Shown here one piece after another: positions 3,501-63,260 of a stretch of 64,000 nt of DNA. Below the pieces are notes generated by a model. That model did no database searches. It was not told the DNA's origin and worked only from the letters and a program-made list of their open reading frames with translations. The stretch covers positions 4,429,501 to 4,493,500 of the forward strand of contig NC_083510.1 in assembly GCF_032362555.1 (NCBI RefSeq), given 5' to 3'. Position numbers and translations under genes: made by a program. The DNA comes from Amyelois transitella (taxonomy: Eukaryota; Arthropoda; Insecta; Lepidoptera; Pyralidae). The number at the start of each line of letters is the position of its first letter. Within the stretch, counting starts at the first letter, position 1.

Positions 3501-6022
3501 AACTACAAATAAACTTACATATTACAAATAAGTACACATTTATAATATTACAAAAAAATAATAGACACACGTCAAAACAACCTTGATGCAACCGGCGTCT
3601 ATTGTAAAATAACTGACATTGGAATTCTTAAAACGGTCGCGTGACTGGACTGTGTGCGCGGGCGCACGCGTCCATACTTTGATATCGATAAGTTATTGAT
3701 ACAAATCCGTCATGCTGACTGGCAAGGTCGATGCACTCATCGTGATTGAGCTTTTTTTGTTACGTCACATATAATTAGCGGTATCGCTTGCAATTGACCT
3801 TTTCAAATACCTAATTAGATTGTATCGCCATTTGTGTTTTGTAGTGTTTTAATGTGAGACTGCAAACTCCATTCCTCATATGATTTGTTGTCATAATTTA
3901 ATATCATACATTTCAAATTTCATTTGATTTTTACTTTCTTTTCTGCTCAAATTATGCGGTTTATATCGATATAATCCTTGTGAATCTGTTTTATATTTAA
4001 TACTTGCCAGTACATTTTCAAAATATTTATGAATAATATTATTGTTTTGGAAAATGAATAGGACTAGTCCATCTATTCCCCATGCTTATAAACTTGGAAT
4101 CCTTCTTTATGGTGATGGGCTAGCAACCTGTCACTATATGAATCTCAGTTCTACCATTAAGCTAAAAATCTTAACATAGCCAATCAGCCATTTCAATACT
4201 GTTGGCTCTGTCTATCCCGCTTCTTGTCCCGGACATAGACGTGAATATATGTATGTATGTATGTATATATTTTTCCATTATTACTAATAAAAATCATCAA
4301 TACATATATTAGCAATATTATTTTATATAATAAGAAATGTAATTGAATATAGTGCAATAACTTATTTATCATTTAATCAATACAATGAATATATAATGAA
4401 TGTTACAAGTGAACCAATAAGTGATCTCACTAATAAGTAATAAGCACTCATTTAGGTATTTATTGCAAAAGTATACTTACATTACGTCTATCCTAAACTC
4501 GTGACATTGTGATTGAAAATTTACGACTTCACTTACAGCCACGGCGAAGAAGGATGAAAATGGATGTCATTGGGAGGTTTCGTTATAATTGGTGGATGTG
4601 GATTGGGCAAGTCGACCTTCACAGAAAGCGAGATACGCGCTTTTGCCTTTACGCGCGCCGACGCGGGAAGTTATGTGGTTACCAGCTGCTTATTCAGGTC
4701 AGTGGCTACACTGGGTGCAAATTCGATCGTATAAATAAAATATTTTCGTAAGAAATAAAAGATTTTCCCTGAAGGCTGGAGACTCACAAACATATGATAC
4801 CTAAAATTACATGAAAGTACAAAACTATTTTTTAAATTAAATTTAACCTATGATGACTTATAATGCGTATAAATTGAAGTAAATCTGTATTGATTCTTAT
4901 TATTTTATATAAGCAGTCATTGTACACGAAAGAATCTAAATATCATAACTGCTAACGAAAATATTTAAGTACTTCAATCCAATACTACTTATTAGAGTGA
5001 TATGAAATTTATTCTCCACCTTGGACCTAATTATATCACAATCATACATTGTACGCAATGCATTATTATCTTACACACTCGTTAGTATTAGTGTCGAAAA
5101 TGCCTAAGGCGAAAACAATAACGTTTTCTCGGTGTGCCACCGGACTGTTGCGCAAGAGTTTACTGGAGCAGTCGGTGCAAGAGTGCCACTTTCTTGCCGG
5201 ACGACTACACTTCAGACCCGTTTATACTGGATACTCCTGTTATCCTAACTTTTCAATATAATATACCTGTAATTAGATAGCTTTAATTATATCTACTTCA
5301 GAAACATTCGATATGTTTCGATGAAAGCACAATACTATGTCGGGTTAATACAAAAAAATATCATAATTTATTTCAGAAAAATATGAACTATTTTGATAGT
5401 TAATTAATTTTTATTTCATTCGAGTTAGACATAGCGAGTTTCGATGATTGTCTAATAAGTACATGATCTTCTTCACATTAATAAATGAGTGATTAACGAG
5501 ATGAATCCAAACCAGTCTTTACATAACTGACATGTTACATACGTTACAAGCTAATTAAACCAATCGTCAATCACTGGTCTCAGCTTTAGGTGTCGCACCC
5601 TTTCCTCTCTTAATACTAGGTAGATAAAAAATTAAACATACAATGGTTTTTATGATGAAACATACAATGAATTTTCGGACGGATTCTTAAGGCATCCAAC
5701 TGAACATGACATTCGAATCTTATGACTCAACAGTCAACTTAAACTTAAAATTATACCAATTCTTTAGTGTAATTTAAGCATTCTAATACCTACAGGGGTC
5801 GTGGCAAGTAGAAGGATATCTCTGTGTGTACACCTCCAGTAAGGAAGCGTGAATTTATTACGTTTCTATACCAACAGCCACGTTATATAATACTATGATA
5901 AATAAAAAATTGAAATGCTTAATATAAAACTTTGTAATAATTCTGAAAAAGATGTTTATTGTAAAAATCTGGACTTGTCTCCAAATTTTTTTTACTGTAA
6001 ATTAATGTCGGCGGAAATACTA
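585..6022. other. Intergenic DNA, 3' UTR then no recognised gene
   Basis: The first 230 bases are the 3' UTR of the upstream cuticular gene. The rest is AT-rich and holds a (TATG)n-tailed retroposon copy at 4056-4270, a CpG-rich patch at 3630-3680 and three open, GC-richer islands (3090-3297, 4539-4697, 5085-5262) that match no protein I recognise. No RR-2 exon, tRNA or rRNA is visible. Confidence 0.6.
4056..4270 (+). repeat. (TATG)n-tailed short retroposon, copy 1
   Basis: The copy shares the family landmarks in order: GGACTAGTCCATCT near the head, CTTGGAATCCTTCTTT, GGGCTAGCAACCTGTCACTA, TTGGCTCTGTCTA, and a terminal TATG microsatellite. Other copies in this window have target-site duplications, so the family moves by retroposition, with the TATG tail at its 3' end. 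It is diverged and I see no target duplication here. Confidence 0.7.
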
Positions 6023-8415: not shown

Positions 8416-11400
8416 ATGTATACGAAAGTAAGATAATAAAGTTGAATATCAAAGGGTAGTTAAGTTAAGAAGTTGTTTTTTGGGAGAATTTCGAGTTGTT
8501 TTTAATCAAATATTTATATCATTCTTTGTTTGTTTAAAAAACTCTGCTAGAGGAGTGTATTTATCCCAGTTCAAAAGTTTAGCAAAGAAGGACGCAATTG
8601 TACAAAACACAATAATGAAAGAACTGCATAATTAAACTGCCCTTAATGCACTTCGACATTCTCTGCCAGTGCAACCTTAACAAAAATCGTAATAAAAATA
8701 CGAGTGAATAGCTACTTAGACAGTTTCTAAATCTGGATACGAGTAAAAAATATAGTAACATGATTTTTTCCAATATTAATTAAACATGATAATTTTACAG
8801 GTCCTTCTCCTCAGCCTTGTGGCGGCATGCCACGCTAGTCCAGTCCCCGAAGACAGTCACCAAGCCTTCTCCTCACAAAGCATCATACACCACAACGAGC
8901 CCAGCCAATCCACACCTTACATCCAACACCCAGCCCAAATCCAAATAGAACAGCAACAAATTCTTCAACATGGACCATTAGTCCATCATTTTGAGCATAG
9001 CGCACCTCTGATCCATTCACCCGTGGTACATGCCATTCATGCGGCTCCAGTGGTACATGCTGCCCCGGTAGTGCATACTGCCCCTGTGGTGCATGCCTCT
9101 CCGTTGAGTTTGGTGCATCATGTTGCCCCCGTGCATCAAACTCCCGTCGTGCAGCATGTAGCGCCTGCAGTGGTTGGCCGCAGCGAACGGGTGGAGGAAT
9201 ATGTAAGTTTTGTTTTTATTTTTTCGTAAAGAAATTATCGATCGAAAGTAGATATCCACTTTGTCGTTTATCACAAATCCAACGGGAACATTACGAGTAT
9301 ATCCTTCTCAATCAAATTTGCATAATAAATAATTCAATTACAAATTTGCATAATACTATATGTAGTACATGTACTATATGTAGTCCAATTGAATTGATTA
9401 TGATCAAAATATGTTACCATCGTCAAGATGTTTTGATTAATAATAATCAAAACATAATTTTTTTTACAATTATAAAATTGTATTATGAAGTTATTATCAT
9501 TTTAAGTTCTATTATGGTTACCGTAAAATTCCCCAATTACGTTTTTGCTTTTAATATGCAATTGCTACGACTATACTATAAATTATTTTATTTATTTACT
9601 TTTAAACATGATATATACATAATTCATGAAGATATTGCGATAGCAGTTTGCGTTTCGAAAAATTTACGCGTGATATTACACGCACTAAAATTTACTTACA
9701 AAGAAAGAGAAAGGCACATATATTATAACTATGATTAAAAATCTGATCAGTTAATACAACCCTTACTATATATATATATATCTTTGTAGAGTGCGGATAA
9801 TTCTAGTGGGAACAATTTCATAGTACACATACATACATCCTATCCTATATGTCTTGAAAAGTCTGATAGGCCACGTTAAAATGTAACAGGATCATGTTTT
9901 GATCTTTGAGCATTAATATTAATGCAATAATTAGAATTCTTAAACCAAAAAGTTTAAATTTTAAACGAGTTATACTTCAGCTAGCTAATTCTGTAATCTT
10001 AACACAAATTTTAATTTATATCTGTAAAACTATTTAAACTTATAAATGAATAAAACCCCGCATTAAAATTAAGCTATATATAGGAATATATTCAGGTAAA
10101 TAGTTAAGAAGTTTTCTTTTAAATTATTTTTTAAACGAAATTTAAATGAAAATGCAGTTCGGCTCTAATTGCGCGCCCTATTTTATTAAGTTAGAAGTAT
10201 ACTTACTCTATAACACAACCCAATTAAATGTTTATTGTGCAAGCTCCTTGTCATTACAGACTATAGAAAGTTTTGTAACATCATACGGCAATCAATCTAT
10301 CACGCTGTGATTCGGATTACTGTCTATTTATCACAAACATCATTACTTATATAGTTTACCTCTAAAGTTGCCCTATAAAACTCAATTATAAGCTTGAACA
10401 ATTTAATTGTATTCCATCGACCATTTACACATTTTTTGAGTAAAGACGACGGAAGTTAAACCTACCTCTCGCTGTACCGGCGCAATAACACTCGTATCTC
10501 TTTGTCTTTCTTGTGTTAATCCTGGTAACATCCTAACCTTTCTAGAGTGAGATTGGCTAAATCAGTTAAGTCGATGTAATAATCAGTATCTATTTTAAAT
10601 ACAGGCCCCTGCTAGATACGAGTTCTCGTACTCCGTGGAGGACCCCCACACCGGCGACCACAAGTCCCAGCACGAGAGCCGCGACGGTGACGTCGTGAAG
10701 GGAGAGTACTCTCTTCTCCAGCCCGATGGTTCCATCCGCAAAGTGGAGTACACCGCTGATGAACATAACGGGTAAGATAAAATTTTTTGGGCAAGTGGAA
10801 AGATGTAGTCTCTGCCTACCCCTCTGAGAATGAGTTGTGTTTTATATATGTTACCTGGTATATATTTTTATTAATGCCAAGTATAATGTGCAGTCAATAA
10901 CACAAAGAAGTATAAAAAAGCCAAATTTATTTATAAACTATGCTGAAAAATATAATTCTGTAATAACTTGCACTAAAATATCAGAACCCTATTGGTAAAC
11001 TCAATAAATTTAATGTAGGCTCTGTAAAAATTAACAGGACCCCTGTAAATAAAATAAATATTTCATTAAAAATGTAGACGTAACTGTATATACATAATCG
11101 AATATTATTCAATTCGTCTCGACAGCAAGTTCATACGACCGACATTGAGAGATAGATAAATGATTGAATGAAATATTATTAAATAAATCATCAAAGTATA
11201 ACTATCTCTAACTACAACGAAACAAATCGTCTTGTAACTAATACATAATAGGGAAACACTGAAATGATTAAAAGTCGTGCCTGAAGATTGACAAGCCTCA
11301 ATTTGCTTATTCGATTATGCGAAAACATTCGAGTCCATTCATGTGAACTTGTGATCTTTACGTAACCGTATCTCGATGATGTTAAGGCCAAGTAAGATAT

Positions 11401-14695: not shown

Positions 14696-15146
14696 TAATA
14701 AATATTATAAAGAAGAACGGACCCATAGGATAGGTAAAATTCTGAAGGCGGGCCCAGGATGTCAATAGCATTGTAAAGAAAGGTACGGTACGTCACAAAA
14801 CGATTAGATAGAGAAGAGTCAACGTAATAGCTTGGTGTAAGAGTGTATGAAAATCATTTTACAACAACCTTAATTTTCAAAACTCTAGGTTATTGGAACT
14901 AAGCACAGAATTAAGAATATTTTCATCTGCGATTGTAGTTGTTTTTTTAAACTACTTTTTCAAAAATCTAACTTTCACTTTAAGGTGCTCTAAGTAAATT
15001 TTATAATGTAACCTCATCGTAACTTTTAAATATTTCATGTAGAGATCAAATTGTTTAAATCGTAGGTATACTGTAAGAAGCACCAATGAAACAAAAAATA
15101 TAATATGATAATTATTTTATTATTAGCGCCGTGTGATTTCCTTTAG

Positions 15147-15349
15147 AATAGGACCACTCCATCTCTTTCCCATCGATGTCGTAAAAGGCAACAAAGGAAT
15201 AGGCTAATTAACTTGGGATTCTTCTTGTAGGCTATATAGGCTCCTGTCACTCGTTGTATTTGAATCTTATTTCATCATTAAACTTTACTTTTTAGTCTTG
15301 CCAGACTATTGATTTTTTCTACCTCGTGAAGGATGGATACGTAATTATA
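15147..15349 (+). repeat. (TATG)n-tailed retroposon, copy
   Basis: The landmarks are ATAGGACCACTCCATCTCTT, TCCCATCGATGTCGTAAAAG, ACTTGGGATTCTTCTTGTAG and CTCCTGTCACT, with a decayed tail near TTATGTATGA. It is diverged but nearly complete. Confidence 0.65.
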
Positions 15350-15421
15350 ATTATGTATGACATTTTTTTCATCACATAACAGTGCCATTTTATTAGTTGC
15401 TCTTGAGTTGTAAAGATAGAA

Positions 15422-32036: not shown

Positions 32037-34927
32037 ATGGTTCACAGGGTAAGTGTTTCGTGTGTAATGTATTTTAGATAAATGATTTATAACCCAAATG
32101 TTCCCATCAAAAGAATCAAAGCAAACAGCTATTACATTTAATTATTAATTATTTATTAATTATTTAATTATTTAACTGTTTCTCTGATACGTTGATGTGA
32201 ACTTTAAAGTTTAAAACTTGTAATAAAATTAACTGTATATTGTATTCTGTACATTTTATTAATCTTGTTTAAAATTATTGTCAACCATTACAAGAAATAA
32301 ACAAAGAAACAATTGAAATTTCAGAACGATCACTTGCACCCGATTATTTAATAAAACAGAAAGTTTCGTACAGTGATAAATACTATTTACATTTTTATAC
32401 CTTCTTCTATTTCCAGTTAATAACCTTCATCGCAGTAGTAACTGTAGTGACGGCTGAATACGATTACGGCCATGCAGTCTCTTCACAGTCGATCATCCGC
32501 CAGGACGGAGACTACGCCCTCGGTCACCTGGTAGCACCTTCTCACTACGCTGCACCCCTGGTACACGCGTCTCCACTTGCCCACTACGCCGCTCCTTTAC
32601 CTCTTGCTGGATATGGGGGATATGTAGATGATCATGAACATGAAGACCATATAAGTGTAAGAAAATGATTATGTACATACTTATTAGGTTACAGTGGCAG
32701 CACCTTCTCACTCTGCTGCGCGCCTGGTGCTTGCGTCTCCGCACTCCCACTTTACAGCTTCTATCCTCTCGCTAGATATGAAGAGATCATGATCATGAAC
32801 TTGAAGATGATATAAGTGTAAGGTAATGATTATGTACTTGTTTACTAGGTCACTTAGTAGCACCCTTTCACTACGCTGCGTGGTCGTTACTATTTACATA
32901 AAAACATACTTCAAATCAGGCCTCTTTATCAATGGGATGTTTGCGGCTATATTTTTCATACCCTACTAAGGCAAAGATAAAATATGAGGTAATATGATGA
33001 TAACTTACATGACCTACTTTACTAACTACACAAAACCGACTATAATAACTTAAATATATATATATTTTTCTATCACTATACTTATTAAATTAGAAAAACA
33101 TATAAATGTGATATTTAAGATCCGTTTTCAAACTATACATCTCCATTTCAGGACCATGACTATCCAAAGTATGCCTTCGAATACTCAGTATCTGACCCTC
33201 ACACGGGAGATGTGAAGTCTCAGCATGAGAGTCGTGACGGTGACGTGGTCCACGGGTATTATTCCCTGGTGCAACCTGATGGCTCCGTCCGCAAGGTGGA
33301 GTACACAGCTGATGACCACAACGGGTAAGTAATCTCTCCTTATTTATCCTGGGAAGCCTGATATAAAACTAGGACTATCATCCTGGATTGAGTCAATCAG
33401 GTTGTTACACGAAAAGATTCCCTTCTGACAATAATCTGTAATGCAGCAGTTCTACTCATTCGTTCATGCGTTCAATTCAACCTTGCAAGGTTGGGTTGAC
33501 GACCACGGTCAAAAAAGAACGTTTCACGCTTCAATTGAGGAAATTACCTTAGTTCAATGCAATTGTAACGGTAGACATTTGTATTTATGTAAATTATGTC
33601 ATTTATTAATCGGGTTTACAAAGTAAGAATGAATTTGGATAGTGCACGCGGGTTTTTATATATTTTCTGATAAATAACTATTGTTTCCTGTTTCGTATTT
33701 TTTTTTATTACAACAAATCGGGAAATGGTATATTCTTACGCTTTTACAATAATTTGAAAAACTGTTTAACATATTGTAGACCCTTTGAAAAAATGAAATC
33801 TGCCGTAAACATACATACATATCTCCCTTGCGGGGTAGACAGAGCCAACAGTCTTGAAAAGACTTAATGGCCACGTTCAGCTATTTGGCTTAACGATAGA
33901 ATTGAGATTCAACTAGTGACAGGTTGCTAGCCCATCGCTTAAAAAAGAATCCCAAGTTTGTAAGCCTATCCCTTAGTATCTGCCGTAAAAGATTAGATTA
34001 AAACCGAGTCAAACACAAACCAAACAAACCTTACATTAGAAATTCAGTCTTGCACATACAAAATAATAACAAGGAATGTTTCATTTTATTCAGTGAAACT
34101 AAACTTATAGACATAAGATCAATCATCGCTGAAATAATTTTTTGCTCCCCGTCATTTCAAACTGACAATTAGTCACAGTCAACACCGCACCCATAGCTCG
34201 TAATCGTAACTCATATTGGCTATGCCACGAAGTGTATTTTACGACTCTCGTTAAATATGAATGAAATATTATAATCATTGTTTCTTAATTTCTAATTAAC
34301 GCAAATTTGGATCAAGGAAATTTGTTAAATAGTTAAGAAACTAATGTGAATTTAATTATACAAAATAATTGTTTTAGACTGAATATTTTTTATTATGATT
34401 AGGAAGCAAAGATCGATTTTAAATTAGACCAAACTAAACATTGTTCAATTATTTGATTACAAAAGAAGCGCGTTTATGTCTTTTATAAGTCAGTCGGTTA
34501 AGAATGTTCCTATTTTATACGCGCATTTGGCTCGATAAAAATCATATAAAGACAAAAGTTAATTTCAGATCACAAAGATTCATTCTAGCCATTAGTCTTT
34601 CAAAATAAACGCTCCTTTTTCTTTTAAAATTTCAGCAGCATATTATAAAAGAAATATTATTATTTAAAAACTTATAGAGACGCTCCATTTATGTGATAAT
34701 GCTGCTGATCATTGCCTTTAGGTCAAGACTGTCTGCTCTATCTACCTCGTAAGGGTGATAGACGTGATTATATGTATGTATGTAATAATGTGTTTGTAAA
34801 GAATGTATCTATTTTTTAGAAAATACCTATATTATAACGTTTTCAATTAAATTTCAGGTTCAATGCTGTAGTACTGAACTCGGCTCCAACCATTCACCTG
34901 GAGCCTGAACATCATCACGATTATTAA
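32037..34927 (+). CDS. G5: RR-2 cuticular protein, 164 aa, four exons
   Basis: Exons are 32037-32048, 32417-32656, 33152-33324 and 34858-34927 (495 nt with stop). The signal peptide is [17 protein letters not shown]. The arm starts [20 protein letters not shown], continues with [20 protein letters not shown] and ends in an acidic His segment ([10 protein letters not shown]). Exon 3 is 173 nt, two codons longer than in most neighbours, starting [20 protein letters not shown]; then come [28 protein letters not shown] and FNAVV. The tail is [17 protein letters not shown]. Introns are 368, 495 and 1533 nt. Intron 2 carries decayed tandem copies of the end of exon 2, and intron 3 carries a retroposon with a 12-bp target duplication. 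The likely poly(A) signal is ATTAAA 34979-34984. It is a predicted secreted chitin-binding protein. Confidence 0.94.
32522..32882 (+). repeat. Tandem duplication of G5 exon 2 end plus splice donor
   Basis: Unit 1 (32522-32686) contains the last 45 codons of exon 2, the donor and about 30 bp of intron. Unit 2 (32687-32847) repeats it with many substitutions and small indels, including the donor-like ATAAGTGTAAGG. Unit 3 is a stub (32848-32882). Copies 2 and 3 lie inside intron 2. Unit 2 starts in the right frame ([20 protein letters not shown]) but loses it and hits a stop, so it is a dead exon copy. Confidence 0.85.
33370..33429 (+). repeat. Interspersed repeat (family D) fragment in G5 intron 3
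   Basis: ATCCTGGATTGAGTCAATCA and GGTTGTTACACGAAAAGATT match the landmarks of the copy at 21940-22128. Confidence 0.5.
33810..33977 (-). mobile_element. (TATG)n-tailed retroposon with 12-bp target duplication, G5 intron 3
   Basis: The insert is flanked by perfect direct copies of ATCTGCCGTAAA (33798-33809 and 33978-33989). Read on the minus strand it is 5'-truncated and ends in a TATG repeat. Body landmarks are CCCTTGCGGGGTAGACAGAG, CCAACAGTCTTGAAAAGACT and GTGACAGGTTGCTAGCCCAT. The target duplication with a truncated 5' end is the hallmark of target-primed reverse transcription. Confidence 0.85.
34718..34785 (+). repeat. (TATG)n-tailed retroposon, 3' end fragment, G5 intron 3
   Basis: The stretch TCTATCTACCTCGTAAGGGT, then AGACGTGATTATATGTATGT, matches the 3' end of the family. 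Confidence 0.6.
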
Positions 34928-42233: not shown

Positions 42234-42610
42234 GGCCGGGACTCCACCAAAGCGGAGACGAGACGAGCGGAGAGGAGATGTTTTTTAAACAACCAATAGA
42301 ATTGAGTTATTGACACGTCTCCTCTCCGCTCAGCTTCAGTGGAGATCGCTGTGCGGAGATGTGTAATATTTGTATGTCGCGATGGAAGCGGAGATGTGAG
42401 CTGTGCGCGGACGACGCGCAGTGGAGACGAGAGATGTGCGTACTGAGCACTCAACGCCCCGCACCCGAGCTGAAAAACATCTCTTCTCGCACAGCACACA
42501 GCACACCGCACACATCTCCGCTTTGGTGGAGTCCCGCGAGCTGAAAAACATCTCTTCTCGCACAGCACACAGCACACCGCACACATCTCTGCTTTGGTGG
42601 AGTCCCGGCC
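42234..42610. mobile_element. Harbinger-like MITE with internal 71-bp duplication
   Basis: The 377-bp element has 25-bp terminal inverted repeats, GGCCGGGACTCCACCAAAGC plus GGAGA, with one mismatch between the ends. It is flanked by TTA target duplications (42231-42233 and 42611-42613), typical of PIF/Harbinger elements. Inside, 42467-42537 is repeated at 42538-42608, so a second copy of the right terminal repeat lies internally. Several open frames cross it but they only reflect its low stop content; it has no coding function. Confidence 0.88.
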
Positions 42611-50493: not shown

Positions 50494-50691
50494 GTGCCAT
50501 GTGGTTCCCGGCACATTAGGACCACTGTACCTATCCCATGGATGTCTAATAAACTTGGGATTCTTCTCGGGCTTGAGCTAGCAACCTGTCAGCTCCATGT
50601 AGCCTTTCATAGCGTCGCTTCTTTCGGTTGTTTTTCGAGACAGTTGGCTCTGTCTACCTCGCATGAAATATAAACGTGATTATATGTATGT
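50494..50691 (+). repeat. (TATG)n-tailed retroposon with its 5' head
   Basis: This copy begins GTGCCATGTGGTTCCCGGCA, the same head as the copy in G8 intron 3. It continues with TAGGACCACT, CCCATGGATGTC, ACTTGGGATTCTTCTCGGGC, AGTTGGCTCTGTCTACCTCG and ATTATATGTATGTAG. Confidence 0.7.
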
Positions 50692-51839
50692 AGTAATTAA
50701 AGCTTTTCCAAAAAATATGGTCGATTAAAAAGCATTGAATTTCCCAAAATACGGATATCCAGGTGAAGGAGGGTGCTGGATTGGAGACCATGGGATTAAA
50801 AGCGACCAAGGGAATTTTACTGCCTAAAAAGAACACATTTGAGGGAAGAAGCGTACAAGAAAATGACCCAAAACAAGAATAATGTCTTTAAGTAATGAAA
50901 ATTGTAGTAAATATAGTAATATACAATTCTTAGCGTAATTCCTAGAATAAATAACGTCAATTTAAACGCAATCACAATAACGACGCAGAATTGCCTACCA
51001 ACAAATAGGTCCTGTGGCCTACATTATGCGTAAATCTCGCGAAACATTGCCACAATTGCATCGAAAACCTACAAATATTGACTAGGGCCATGTTTCAAAA
51101 CCGCAACATTACCAATCAATCTGTAATTACTTCCCGAGGCTACGAATATTCACATGCTAATAAATAAATGAGTAGGTAAAGATACCTTAATTTTCCTTTT
51201 AAATTTAACATTGTTTTAAATTTGTAATTCTTTTTTAGTTATAAGTATAATGAATACACCACGTAAATTAACACGTTAAGGACATACGCACTTGCATGCC
51301 TATCTAAGTAAATCTCAGAGTGTAATTACAAAAAACTTGCTAGCAAAAGAAAGAAACGAAATGAACTTAGAAATTGTGATGACCCCACGAAAAAGTGAAT
51401 TATAATAACGAACTACGCCAGTTGCTTTGAATAATGAACAAATAAAAATACGTTACAGCGAACAAAAAATAAAAATATTCACTCAATTATAAACAACATG
51501 ATTGCAAAATAAACAGAACTTGATGTTAATGTCAATATTTTTGTCACATTCAGCACAACTATTTGTCAATAGAAATGCTTGGATCTCAGTCCACAAGCCG
51601 TCACTGGCGAGAATGCGGTACGGAATCTAAGCAAAGTCGGGCAAGCGACCTTGACGTTCGTGAGATAATATCTTCACCTAGTAAAGCGTACACACTGACA
51701 TACTGACCATCGACAACTTCACATGAAAAAAATATGTAAGTAGATGAAGACAAATGTGAATATATGTTTACCAGTAGATACATGAAGAAAATGAAGTACT
51801 TGTTTAAAGAACTTGGTTAAGTGAAAAGATGTAGACTGC

Positions 51840-55937: not shown

Positions 55938-56148
55938 ACTAGCGGCCCGCCCCGGCTTCGCACGGGTGGACATATTTTTGTGTTTTATATTTTGAAATAA
56001 ATTTATTTCAAAACAAATTTATGCCTATGTCACTTTTGAAGGTCTATTCTATATCTGTGCCAAATTTTATCAAAATCGGACCAGTCGTTTTTGAGTTTAT
56101 TCTACACAAACATACAAATCTTTCCTCTTTATTATTAGTGTGGATGTG
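55938..56148 (-). repeat. Interspersed ACTAGCGGCCCGCCCCGG element
   Basis: It starts CTAGCGGCCCGCCCCGGCTT, contains TTTATCAAAATCGGACCAGT and ends CTTTATTATTAGTGTGGATG. It is a short relative of 35088-35812. Confidence 0.65.
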
Positions 56149-56961: not shown

Positions 56962-59768
56962 ATGTTGACAAGAGTAAGTGTACTAGTACATTGTAATAAC
57001 TTTTAGGCTGTGATCGCCCCGTAAAATCGAAGAAGTGGTTATATCTACTTCCTCCTATCGCATCAATGGCAAATTTTGAAAGGAGATTGATGATCTCATC
57101 AGGAGATCAAAAATTTAAGAAGAAATTAAGTTAAATTTTGATGCATGTTTGCTTCGATAATGCTGTGATGCTATCGGCTTCAATAGAATTTAGTCCTAAC
57201 ACGATCGTTTCTCGTGTTATTTTGGAGGTGCATATACTTTACTTCCTAACTTTTCTATACAACATATTGAAAGGCTTTCGGAATAATGTAATAAAATACA
57301 TGATGTGTGTGTAAAAAGGAGGCGAAAGAGATCATCACTAAGCGAGAGGGAAATAGTCTAAGCAATTGAAAATGGTGTGATGAAATATATGTGTATTATT
57401 TACAGGTGCTGTCCGTCTGCCTGCTGATGTCAGCCTGCCAGGCGATCTTCCCGTTCCACCACCACCACCATCACCACCACCCCGCGATCTCCCACCAGGA
57501 CTTCCAGAAGCACGATGGCCACCACCACCCAGTTCATCACCATATCCCCATTCACCACCACATCCCGATTCATCACCCAATCCCCATTCATCACCCGATC
57601 GAGCCTATTCATCATCACGTGCCTATCCACCATGCGCCTATTCATCATGATCACTATGTGAGTACCAACTTATTTTAATAATAAAGCAAAATCAATTTTC
57701 CATGAAAGTTTTCCATAGAAATATTGGATTATTTTTGTCTTTTATTTCTCCAAGTTTTTGGGTTTAAATATTGTTTTTTTGAAAACGCTGTCTTGTCTCC
57801 AAACCAAAGCTCAATCACAAATGTTTTCGCCGTCTTGCAACCTCGTAATTGAATTAAGAAATATTTTACATGAAGTAAGGGAATTTTACTAGTAAATGTA
57901 AAATGCAGAAATTAAGTGAACGGCTTATAATTACTTAGTAAACTTCCTGCAGTTAAGCCCTAATTAAATAGGCAGAAATCCTAGATAAGTTATATTTGAT
58001 AACATTTTTTCAGAACCTATTCTTAATGCCTTTATATTACTTTTTGATACTCTTCGGGCACATTAAAATCAATCTAAAATTCCCACGAAACTTTATTGGC
58101 CGCCTATGCCACGTAGATAATAGATATTATAGGTGATAAAACCACAGAAGGTCAAAATATAATTACTGCTTTATCTAGATTCTGATATTAATTAAAATAC
58201 TAAACTTAATCTCTGGCAAATAATAGTGAATTCTAAAGTATAGTTCTTAGGTCTCATAGAAAACCTTATTGTGTTATTTACTTAAATGGCAAGGTTCTTC
58301 GATTCTATTAGTGAAACTAGAGCAATATCAATGTATTGGGAAGGTGTTGACCCCAGATTAAAAAGGTCCCTGTGGAAGGAGACCTTTTAGATTCCAAATG
58401 AGTTCACTATTACACGTTCCTCAAACTTAAAAAGGCGTGAATTCTTGATAACAATTAGAAACTTTCCTTATTGCACATTTGCATATAGTCAAATGTGCAA
58501 AAAGGAAAGTTTCTAATGCTGGGCATATTTTTAATTATTGCACTTGTTAGAGTTGTAATCGAGTCTACCACCTTTTTCTACTTTTCCAATATTTCATATC
58601 GTGTACATAAATAACATGACATGGGAATATGGAGAATAATACTTTATCTAAGAAGTAATCAAATCCCAATTTAGCTACCTGCCAGCGAGGCAATTTTAAT
58701 TAAGTAAAAAGTAATAATTAAATAAAAGCCGACGCTTCTGTAGTGTAGAGTAAAATATAGTATATAATATCCCAATTTTTTTATTATCATATATGAAATG
58801 GAAAGTACGAGTAGTAAATGACGCTATCGTGGAATTTCCACAGGGCCATGTTCAGATATAATTTATTTTAACATATATTTTACAGGCCTTCCCAGAATAC
58901 AAGTTCTCGTACTCCGTGCACGACCACCACACCGGGGACGTGAAGTCGCAACACGAGCTCCGGCACGGGGACGTGGTGAAGGGCGGCTACGAGCTGGTGG
59001 AACCCGACGGCAGGTTCAGGAAGGTGGAGTACAAGGCGGACGATCACACCGGGTAAGACATACATACATACATACGTATAATCACGTCTACATCCCTTGC
59101 GGGGTAGACAGAGCCAACAGTCATGAAAAGACTGATAGGCCACGTTCAGCTATGATGGAATTGAGATTCAAATAGTGACAGGTTGCTAGCCCATCGCCTA
59201 AAAGAAGAAACCCATGTTTATAAGCCTATCCCTTAGTCGCCTTTTACGACATCCATGGGAACGAGATGGAGTGTCCTATTCTTTTTTTTTATTGGTGCCG
59301 GGAACCACACGGCACACGACACCGGGTAAGACTTTTGTTTTAAATTTTAAAAGGTGAATATGCATCACGCCTCTTTTCCGGAGGGTTCCCGCAGTCTTTA
59401 TCTTTCCACTTGCCACAATCTCTGCATACTTCTTTTGCTTTACCCTCATTATTTAATACTTTTATGCAAGTTTTTCGAGAGGGTACTCATGACTTTACTT
59501 TTCACTTTGTATATATTTAAGTTATCAGATTTTTGTGGTCGTCGTTCTGGTATCAGGCCTCTGCTATTAAAACCTATGTCTACTTTTTTTTCCTTATAAT
59601 AACATCTATATTTTTATTGTTATCTGTGTCTCAATTTCATCAAGAACCATCGAGTTTCTTTAAAAGATAATTCTTATTTTTATTTTCCTTAAATTTATCT
59701 TCTTTTTTAGATTCAACGCCATCGTCCATCATTCCTCGCCTCATCATCATGTTCATCATCAAATATAA
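56962..59768 (+). CDS. G8: His-rich RR-2 cuticular protein, 162 aa, four exons
   Basis: Exons are 56962-56973, 57406-57657, 58886-59052 and 59711-59768 (489 nt with stop). The signal peptide is [17 protein letters not shown]. The arm opens [20 protein letters not shown] and continues as repeats of (H)[15 protein letters not shown], with no SSQS and no HYAAP. The RR-2 domain starts near residue 91: [55 protein letters not shown]. The usual DPHTG is DHHTG. The tail [13 protein letters not shown] is short and His-rich. Exon 3 is unusually GC-rich. A retroposon sits exactly on the exon 3 donor, which is duplicated; the first donor must be used because the second would read into TAA at once. The poly(A) signal is at 59896-59901. 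It is a predicted cuticle protein whose His residues suit catechol cross-linking or metal binding (inference). Confidence 0.93.
58454..58517. repeat. 28-bp hairpin with 8-nt loop in G8 intron 2
   Basis: The left arm 58454-58481 and right arm 58490-58517 are reverse complements with one mismatch. The arm reads ATTAGAAACTTTCCTTATTG plus CACATTTG. It may be a short MITE remnant or a small-RNA precursor; nothing here decides between them. Confidence 0.65.
59060..59318 (-). mobile_element. (TATG)n-tailed retroposon, full-length, inserted at G8 splice donor
   Basis: The 259-bp insert is flanked by perfect 14-bp direct repeats ACACCGGGTAAGAC (59046-59059 and 59319-59332). Each repeat contains the end of exon 3 and the GTAAG donor. 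On the minus strand the element starts with the head GTGCCGTGTGGTTCCCGGCA and ends in a TATG repeat. This copy defines the ends of the family best in this window. Confidence 0.92.
59362..59480 (+). repeat. Interspersed repeat (family E) in G8 intron 3
   Basis: CATCACGCCTCTTTTCCGGA and CCACTTGCCACAATCTCTGC, then ATACTTCTTTTGCTTTACCC. Related pieces lie at 61655-61725 and 63140-63260. Confidence 0.55.
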
Positions 59769-60725
59769 TCACCTGATTGTACTACTAGCGACATCTATCG
59801 CCGACGTCCACTTCTCCTATAAGACTGACTTGTGTCTGCTCCAAAGCAAATTTGTAAAATATTTCATACGAATAATTAAAATTATTAGCGCTAATAATAA
59901 AGTGTCTTATTTTTATTTAAACCTGACACATTTAAAGATAGTAATAAAAAGTAAAACAAACAATATTTTTTCAAACATTATCCTTAGAAAAATTAACAAT
60001 TGTTACTAAGCAAAAATATACCTTTTTATTTTTTTTACACTTGCTCCAAAACACCATAGGAATAGAGGCAATAAGTTATTTATTACAACCCATAGTCATG
60101 ACCATATTGATAAGAAATGCTCCGGGCCTTCTTATGTTTAAAAGCAATGATGATTTTAAGTGAAACCTTGCTGACACTAAATACTTTCAACATAAACTTT
60201 TTGACAGCCTGATGTGTTACTCGTATGTAGTGGCTCACACTAGACCGCTATACCGGTAGTCAATTCTCAGTACATCGAGTATTTGTTCCATATATTATTA
60301 TTATACTATCTAAGACTGTGGTATTTGAGTTCGGTAAAGTGATTGCGACTATTGGACTCAAAATATAAAAAATCGGAATACTGGTGTGTAAGCTAGCGAT
60401 CATAGATCATAATGGATCATGCTTAGAAGTAAATTTGGTATTTTTATATCAGGCGGGCTAGCAACCTATCACTACATCTCATTACAATTTCGTTCTTTAA
60501 GCATCTAGTTGTATACCTATGGCCTTCGACCAGACTGATTCTATATAACCTGTAAGGGATGTAATGAATACAACATATATGTATTTGTTTTGAAATGACC
60601 ATCAGAAAAGTTTTCTCTTCACACTTGGAATATACGCCTTTATAAATTACATTACAGATTTAAATTGTTTGCAATTACAGACGTATTTATTACAGGATAT
60701 TAATCATTTGAATATAATCACATAG
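59769..60725. other. Intergenic DNA between G8 and G9
   Basis: The gap holds the G8 3' UTR and AT-rich DNA with one degenerate TATG-tailed retroposon (60425-60590). An open frame at 59749-60009 overlaps the end of G8 in another frame and is judged spurious. Confidence 0.55.
60425..60590 (+). repeat. (TATG)n-tailed retroposon, degenerate copy
   Basis: GGCGGGCTAGCAACCTATCA and CGACCAGACTGATTCTATAT, then CCTGTAAGGGATGTAATG and ATATATGTATTTG, follow family order with many substitutions. Confidence 0.5.
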
Positions 60726-60791: not shown

Positions 60792-62732
60792 ATGATTTGG
60801 AAGGTAAATTAATGTTTGTAATAATCAGTGAACAAAAATTTACACAAGTAAAATAGTTGAAACAAAAAAATAATTTAAACAGCACACTAATGCATAATGC
60901 ATTAGTGTGCTGTTTTAATTCATGCAGAATATGAAATTATAATATTAAACTTATTTAACGTGTGATAGCAAAAAAATAAGTAATAAAAATTTAAGGAGTT
61001 CAAAAATAAATATGGGTGTTTAATAATAAAAAAATTAAACTCAAATCATATTTCTTATGTTCTTTCGATTTCTTCAATTCCTATTTGACAAAAATCGAGC
61101 TAATAGCATCGGCTATACGGACGGTTTTTTACCGAGTTCAAACACAATAATATTTCCTGAAATCCACTTTCCAAATTTCATTATTTTCCGACATATCAAT
61201 TTGCTTTGACAGATAATCTTTTCGTTGTTATTAAAAAGACATAGTTAATACTTTAAAAGCATGATAAAGCTAACTAGTGTGTTATTTTAGACCGCAAGTG
61301 TAATTTGTCTGGCGTTGTGTGTGCTGGGAGATGGGCCAGCGATCTCAGAGCAGCGCGTGAAGATTTCCAATGTTAAGGAGCACAGCGGCCATCATGGAGA
61401 TCTCTCGCACATTGGACCACATGAGCCGGAACATCATGAGGAATACGTATGTATTTGGTCATTGTCCCGGGCCATTTTCATGAATCTTGATTGATTTAAA
61501 TCGACCTGCCTCCAACGTGTTTAAATGTATTTCATCATCATCTTGATCTGTTCTCGGTTGTATCCTTAGCCGTTGCTTAGGATCTTAGATGATAAGACCA
61601 AGCTATTCATTTTCATGCAGAGCATCTTATATTAATTTTCAGAAGATTTGTAGGCAAAGAATATATCTTTCCAATTGCCACGCTCTCTGCATACGTTTTT
61701 TAATTCATCTACATTAGTGAAGAAAATATTAAATTGAACTTAATCTTTTAACAGGCATGGGCGTATCCCTCATACGAATTCTCGTACCATGTGAATGACC
61801 CCCACACCCATGACCAGAAGGGCCAGCAGGAGTCGAGACACGGCGATGAAGTTAAAGGAGAGTACTGGCTGATCGAGCCTGATGGTCGCAAACGAACTGT
61901 GAAGTACCACGCCGACAAGCACAGCGGGTAAGATCTTTATTTATGATATAAAGAGAGAAGTAAAGAAAAGAGCTATAGAATCGCAAATGAACTATATATC
62001 TGCCGATAAAGAAAGAAAACAGGTGAAGTCCTAGTTCTAATAAAGATAATTTAGAGACGCAATTTGATTCTAATTTGGACTTACTAGTAGAACCAGAAAG
62101 ATGACAAAGGCAGACAAAGTTAAATAAAACGTTTTATCGCATAATCTTGAATGTTACCTTAATTAAAATTTTTCTCTTACTCTATCAACCCAATATTTAA
62201 ATACTTTTAAACCATTTTCAGATTCAAAGCCCACGTAGAATACTCAGCGCCGCACCACCACGTCCATATCAAGGCACACAAGCATGAGGACCACAAACCA
62301 GTGATTGAGCATCATCGTGAGGATCATAAGCCAGTGATCGAACATCACGAGGAACACAAACCAATCATCCAACTTCACAAAGTTGAACACAAACTGCCCG
62401 TGATCCAACATCACAAAATTGAACAACATTATATTGAACCAAAACCGGTGATTGAACATCACCATCTCGAACATAAACCGATGATTAAACCTCATCATAT
62501 TGAACATAAACCGGTGATTGAACATCATCATATTGAACATAAACCGGTGATTGAACATCATCATATTGAACAGCAAGTGATTGAGCATCATGATGACCAT
62601 AAGCCATGGATTCATCATCGACATCAGGAATACCGTCATGAACCACATCACCGTCCGCTTAATAGGCCTATCCTAAGACGTCTGGAAGAGAACTACCACC
62701 ACCCTCGTTACTACAGGACTCCTAGGCAATAA
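60792..62732 (+). CDS. G9: divergent RR-2 cuticular protein with repetitive His tail, 283 aa
   Basis: Exons are 60792-60803, 61291-61446, 61755-61927 and 62222-62732 (852 nt with stop). The start MIWKTASVICLALCVLG begins a signal peptide. A short arm of about 35 residues is rich in His, Glu and Gly, without SSQS. Exon 3 is 173 nt. The RR-2 domain is the most diverged of the cluster: YEFSYHVNDPHTHDQKGQQE, RHGDEVKGEYWLIEPDG, KRTVKYHADKHSG, FKAHVEYS, so the usual FNAVV is FKAHV and the TG after DPH is TH. The 170-residue C-terminal exon is built of HKPVIEHHHIE-like 11-residue repeats, three of them encoded by near-perfect 33-bp units (62472-62570). It ends in a basic, Tyr/Pro-rich segment (RRLEENYHHPRYYRTPRQ). 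Introns are 487, 308 and 294 nt. The poly(A) signal is at 62793-62798. A cuticle role is very likely; the tail function is inferred only. Confidence 0.93.
60872..60920. repeat. 24-bp hairpin with 1-nt centre in G9 intron 1
   Basis: The left arm 60872-60895 and right arm 60897-60920 are reverse complements with one mismatch; the inner 19 bp (AACAGCACACTAATGCAT and flank) are perfect. Confidence 0.7.
61655..61725 (+). repeat. Interspersed repeat (family E) fragment in G9 intron 2
   Basis: ATATCTTTCCAATTGCCACG and CTCTCTGCATACGTTTTTTA match the landmarks of the copy at 59362-59480. Confidence 0.5.
62472..62570 (+). repeat. Three 33-bp coding repeats in G9 exon 4
   Basis: Units 62472-62504, 62505-62537 and 62538-62570 each encode HKPVIEHHHIE or a close variant. 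The second and third are identical and the first differs by a few bases. Recent slippage or unequal exchange is the likely source. Confidence 0.9.
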
Positions 62733-63139: not shown

Positions 63140-63260
63140 TTAGTGGCTCTGACACCGATATATTTTAGTAGGCTTTCAATCTTTCCCGGAGGGGCAGACA
63201 TCAACTTTTCACTTGCCACGATCTCTGCATCCTTCTGTCTTTCTCTTCACCATTTTAGCT
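63140..63260 (+). repeat. Interspersed repeat (family E)
   Basis: GGCTCTGACACCGATATATT, CTTTCCCGGAGGGGCAGAC, CACTTGCCACGATCTCTGCA and TCCTTCTGTCTTTCTCTTCA are its landmarks. This is the best preserved of the three pieces. Confidence 0.6.

Follow-up and report, generated by a model that had tools for sequence, protein, structure and literature searches.

A close counterpart of the insertion considered here is the canine merle allele, which a review presents as a SINE-Cf element in PMEL17, lying in reverse orientation at an exon-intron border and bounded by a 15-bp target-site duplication that extends over the acceptor of exon 11; alleles with short tails are reported there to be spliced normally, and those with long tails to use a cryptic acceptor within the element and to have a phenotype (PMC7349775). 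That a SINE can duplicate a splice site is thus already known from canine merle. Introners, too, are described as drawing a splice site from the target sequence that their insertion duplicates (PMC9860276), and a survey from 2025 reports that every one of the 213 introns it examined has direct repeats at its borders or close to them (PMC11782384). In Culex, LTR elements at exon-intron junctions have been tabulated in a paper in which the word 'splice' does not occur (PMC3286476). Among the open-access titles and abstracts that our literature searches listed, none describes the present insertion or a SINE that has duplicated a splice donor in Lepidoptera.

The locus is intron 3 of a gene for an RR-2 cuticle protein in Amyelois transitella, and it was studied in a window of 64,000 nucleotides, meaning the whole stretch of DNA that was analysed. 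As in merle, a short retroposon lies reversed at an exon-intron border and the duplication holds the splice site. The two cases differ in the kind of site, which is an acceptor in merle and at the present locus the donor of an insect cuticle gene, a case known from its sequence. As with introners, a target-site duplication has supplied a copy of a splice site; however, an introner creates a new intron (PMC9860276), while the present intron existed beforehand, at a position common to nine RR-2 exons.

The window contains a cluster of RR-2 cuticle-protein genes, of which the gene of interest is the eighth (G8). A tblastn search of the window with the G8 domain as query returned nine RR-2 exons, all with E values no higher than 4.2e-16, together with a match resembling a last exon at the left window edge (537-581, E 0.025). 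RR-2 is the label of the first-pass annotation, the Pfam name being Chitin_bind_4. All four coding exons of G8 are on the plus strand. The coding part of exon 1 (56962-56973, MLTR) was chosen by eye, gives an open frame when joined to the others and is followed by a GTAAGT donor. Exon 2 (57406-57657) encodes a start that by eye is signal-peptide-like, and a His-rich region; exon 3 (58886-59052) carries most of the RR-2 domain, as judged by tblastn and Pfam PF00379; and exon 4 (59711-59768) contributes 18 residues and then a stop. Joined across GT...AG introns, the four exons form an open frame of 162 aa whose product matches Chitin_bind_4 (PF00379) at E 9.3e-15, and a search of NCBIfam with this protein returned no family. 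Counted from the exon-side donor, intron 3 is 658 bp long (59053-59710, plus strand), runs from GTAAGA to TTTTTTAG and is in phase 2. Intron 2 contains, at 58454-58517, a MITE-like and hairpin-forming inverted repeat with two 28-nt arms that are 96% complementary and lie 8 nt apart.

The word ACACCGGGTAAGAC occurs exactly twice in the window, at a spacing of 273 nt. The left copy (59046-59059, plus strand) is made up of 7 bases from the end of exon 3 and 7 from the start of intron 3, with the exon-side donor at 59053, and the right copy (59319-59332, plus strand) is an exact match that holds a spare donor at 59326. Between the two lies a SINE-like short non-LTR retroposon of 259 bp (59060-59318), which is on the minus strand, antisense to G8, and has its (GTAT)n tail at the 59060 side and its 5' end at the 59318 side. 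The exact 14-bp repeats adjoin this repeated element and are its target-site duplication, as the first-pass annotation had proposed; its description of the duplicated stretch as the end of exon 3 plus the donor agrees with the 7 exonic and 7 intronic bases. The duplication measures 12 to 14 bp, because the AC with which the left copy ends may instead be part of an ATAC repeat of the tail. The right copy is preceded by ACG and the left copy by ACGATC, so that the duplication may be longer and interrupted by a 3-nt gap. That the two 14-mers are identical gives no date for the insertion, as zero differences over 14 sites fit a divergence of up to about 19% (95% bound, by arithmetic).

In target-primed reverse transcription the 3' end of the element joins the first nick. 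The tail of the G8 copy, the reverse complement of (GTAT)n, adjoins GTAAGAC at 59060, which would place the nick of the sense strand after GTAAGAC (intron +7) or, should the AC be part of the tail, after GTAAG; it is from this position of the tail that we infer the order of the nicks. We suggest that a short non-autonomous retroposon, multicopy in the window, entered intron 3 of G8 by this mechanism and that its target-site duplication happened to span the border of exon 3 and intron 3. Exon 3 and its donor would have stayed joined after the first nick, and second-strand repair would have put a copy of the same stretch on the far side of the element (59319-59332).

In its geometry, the allele does not differ from an ordinary insertion of an element within an intron, here at position +5 to +7. 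The first-pass annotation had placed the insertion exactly at a splice donor, which is true of the duplicated stretch and not of the allele. It had also stated that a complete donor was left on the exon side, and this donor is indeed found at 59053, but its further claim that target duplication restored the donor is not supported: with a nick inside the intron the exon-side donor would never have been broken, and what the duplication did was to add a copy downstream. Without any duplication the exon and its donor would have survived, and the real product of the duplication is the spare donor. Any donor-spanning duplication with the element after its left copy is formally an intronic insertion, and the proposed protection of the gene by the duplication can be kept only as a restatement of that equivalence, not as a rescue of the donor. 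Similarly, the gene can be said to have been left intact as far as its open reading frame is concerned, and the claim is limited to the frame.

The paralogues were used as a proxy for the site before the insertion. A donor of the form GG|GT is present at the same codon in all eight other RR-2 exons of the window, and for this reason the donor position must be older than the insert. When 1.6 kb was examined in each of these paralogues, with up to 2 mismatches allowed, the 14-mer at each exon's own border turned up once in every one of the eight, and G8 is alone in having two. A single-donor ancestor is well supported by this comparison among paralogues, and the empty ancestral site would have consisted of one ACACCGGGTAAGAC followed by TTTTGTTTT. 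Because the donor is found without the insert in 8/8 paralogues, the event was not the creation of a new spliceosomal intron, by which an introner is recognised.

The first-pass annotation had predicted a second, identical donor 273 bp downstream, the use of which would lead immediately to an in-frame TAA, and the exact match and the translation, respectively, bear out both statements. Use of the spare donor would add 273 nt to the message and stop at the TAA of GGG TAA, giving a product of 144 aa in which the last 18 residues are lost; the Pfam score of this product drops from 55.1 to 43.3 bits, the cut-off being 25, and its match to the profile ends at position 55 rather than 65 of 66. Any use of the spare donor would therefore yield a prematurely stopped transcript. 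The TAA is in frame as had been said, but it is not caused by the insert, as eight of the nine RR-2 exons read GG|GTAA in the same phase. Both donors have a U1 duplex energy of -10.3 kcal/mol, and those of the paralogues range from -6.2 to -13.0. The 33 positions from +8 to +40 include 9 T at the exon-side donor and 16 at the spare donor; an asymmetry of U-rich context between the two was considered on this basis and given no weight, since the eight paralogues span 9 to 17. The fold of 59270-59345 was unremarkable (z -1.57, with 17 of 200 shuffles folding as well) and gave no sign of a hairpin that would hide the spare donor.

The explanation that we prefer, with a probability of roughly 80%, is ordinary intronic retroposition with a duplication that spans the border, the spare donor being for the most part a weak or silent decoy. 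Most likely the exon-side donor would make most of the mRNA. It is unlikely, although less so than the other alternatives, that the donors are in real competition, with a sizeable share of transcripts using the spare donor at 59326, stopping after ...DDHTG and either undergoing nonsense-mediated decay or encoding a truncated protein, so that the allele would be hypomorphic. The two sites do not differ anywhere from -7 to +7 and by U1 pairing share first rank among 45 GT sites in 58887-59760, as this alternative would have it, and transcript decay is plausible because the stop lies 269 nt ahead of the last junction. On the other hand, the spare donor is preceded by retroposon sequence in place of the native exon, and the frame of G8 has not decayed. 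Work on human genes points both ways: where two donors compete, SRSF1 is cited as promoting use of the intron-proximal site and hnRNP A1 as promoting that of the intron-distal one (PMC5585400). The spare donor is the intron-proximal one, which SRSF1 would favour, and a mostly silent decoy is therefore not secure. The stronger proposition, that a constitutive donor has been turned into a true competition of two 14-nt-identical donors, one on the native exon side and the other on the native intron side, with a balance set by their context alone, appears slightly more doubtful again. If it were true, full-length RR-2 protein would be set against a premature-stop transcript, and the allele would be a natural experiment in donor choice and possibly a hypomorphic or regulated form of a cuticle gene.

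Much less probable is a new cassette exon of 89 nt at about 59237-59325, which would take its acceptor from the insert and its donor from the duplicated target in the manner of antisense SINE exonisation. The best of the 19 AG sites in 59055-59332, at 59235-59236, scores 1.6 and so falls within the range of the seven last-intron acceptors of the window, that of G8 included (1.15-6.45). This site is, however, weaker than six of those seven, and the acceptor score is an ad hoc one with untrained weights. On translation, a transcript that included the cassette would be shifted in frame and encode 192 aa, the native end being lost.

When up to 2 mismatches were allowed, ACACCGGGTAAGAC had three matches in the window, whereas 100 shuffles gave 0.15 on average and never more than 1; the third match (61921-61934) corresponds to the donor of the RR-2 gene that follows. 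In pairs of random 60-mers taken 250 bp apart in the same window, the shared word reached 14 nt in 2 of 3000, these draws carrying no condition that the word adjoin an element on both sides. The least probable alternative, and one that we regard as negligible, is that the repeat arose by chance or is an older direct repeat of the intron, for although words of this length are occasionally shared in so AT-rich a window, the 14-mer has 8 of 14 G or C where the window has 34% G+C, adjoins the repeated element on both sides, takes in the coding end of exon 3 and has a second copy in none of the eight paralogues.

By BLAST, the insert matches 10 further places in the window. A tail of the TATG type is present in the G8 copy and in six of the nine other aligned copies. 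Among the ten copies compared that of G8 is the least diverged, departing from the leave-one-out majority at 8 of 177 sites (4.5%); the other nine differ by 8.6-36.4%, two of them offering only 56 and 60 sites. Two copies (15145-15359 and 50540-50692) have in their flanks the same GYGCCRTGTGR start as the G8 copy, as judged by eye, and because this start is common to both flanks the family probably has its 5' end some 3 nt within the right repeat. A further copy at 33824-33977 (minus strand; about 33798-33989 with tail and duplication) is 5'-truncated and has a TATG-repeat tail and a perfect 12-bp duplication, TTTACGGCAGAT. It is located downstream of the RR-2 exon at 33161-33325, seemingly in the last intron of that gene, and a further fragment (34723-34784) seemingly shares the same intron. 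Duplications of variable length adjoining both ends (14 bp in G8, 12 bp in the second copy), a simple-repeat tail, a common 3' end and the 5' truncation of 33824-33977 are the marks of a non-LTR retroposon. As a clear duplication is seen in only two of ten copies, the other eight sharing words of 5-9 nt at most, the mechanism of mobilisation rests on few copies.

Within 58800-59800, Rfam gave no match at E up to 1 (a degenerate head could escape such a search, and the copy may be 5'-truncated), ARAGORN predicted no tRNA, and no tRNA, 5S or other RNA-family head was found. It is because of this want of an RNA-family match that the element is termed SINE-like rather than a SINE in the strict sense. 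Three exact patterns of the element had 0 matches in viral contigs, one exact pattern had 0 in prokaryote genomes, and phage records held no match to it at E 1e-5; a 14-nt word of the element that occurs in a bird-feather study was taken as chance. Persaeus and Zenon were set aside as the family on account of the poly(A) end described for them (PMC6740152). HaSE1-3 were likewise put aside, the partner LINE of HaSE1 being described as ending in TGA repeats, HaSE3 as having the tail of HaSE1 and HaSE2 as having no simple-repeat tail (PMC3272025). The nearest class, likened by description, is that of the lepidopteran SINEs SfSE1 and PxSE5, which have (ATGT)n tails, and of PxLINE1.1, which has ATGT repeats and 13-bp duplications (PMC8010984). 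The likeness extends to the size class (SfSE1), the tetranucleotide tail, the 13-bp duplication (PxLINE1.1) and an abundance in introns, where 44-51% of P. xylostella SINEs are reported to sit (PMC8010984). When set beside these elements, that of G8 differs in that neither a tRNA nor a 5S head was detected.

The expected frequency of such an event can be gauged only by rough arithmetic. For one window, about 11 copies x 6 registers x about 30 donors / 64,000 gives 0.03, a coincidence of a few per cent, where the registers are placements of the whole 9-nt donor within the 14-bp duplication and the donors are those of 10 genes with 3 introns each, a number assumed from G8, the other genes being partly annotated. 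A genome contains some 1e5 donors. Taking the 11,117 copies reported for SfSE1 and the S. frugiperda genome of about 400 Mb (PMC8010984), the calculation 11,117 x 6 x ~1e5 / 4e8 returns about 17 events per family, with no special mechanism or selection, and since such events act like insertions into introns, they would tend to be retained. The event is thus ordinary retroposition with a neat landing place, and it sets a donor duplicated in an insect next to the acceptor known from the dog. Should both donors be in use, G8 offers a clean natural test of the choice between identical donors at equal strength; with the exon-side donor alone in use, it would be a tidy example of how a donor-spanning duplication amounts to an ordinary intronic insertion.

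Several other repeats were observed in the window. Intron 3 of G8 contains a second, more diverged repeat fragment (59358-59456), which begins about 25-40 nt past the right 14-mer and to which pieces at 63180-63255, 61664-61721 and 5793-5852 are related, as, weakly, is one at 10790-10847 (E 0.009) that begins about 18 nt past the RR-2 exon end at 10771. At 42466-42607 a 71-bp unit is present as two tandem copies that match at 98%. Upstream of G8, a stretch at 55942-56145, its limits set by eye, reads CGGCCCGCCCCGGCTTCGCACGGGTGG... and resembles the end of a common lepidopteran repeat.
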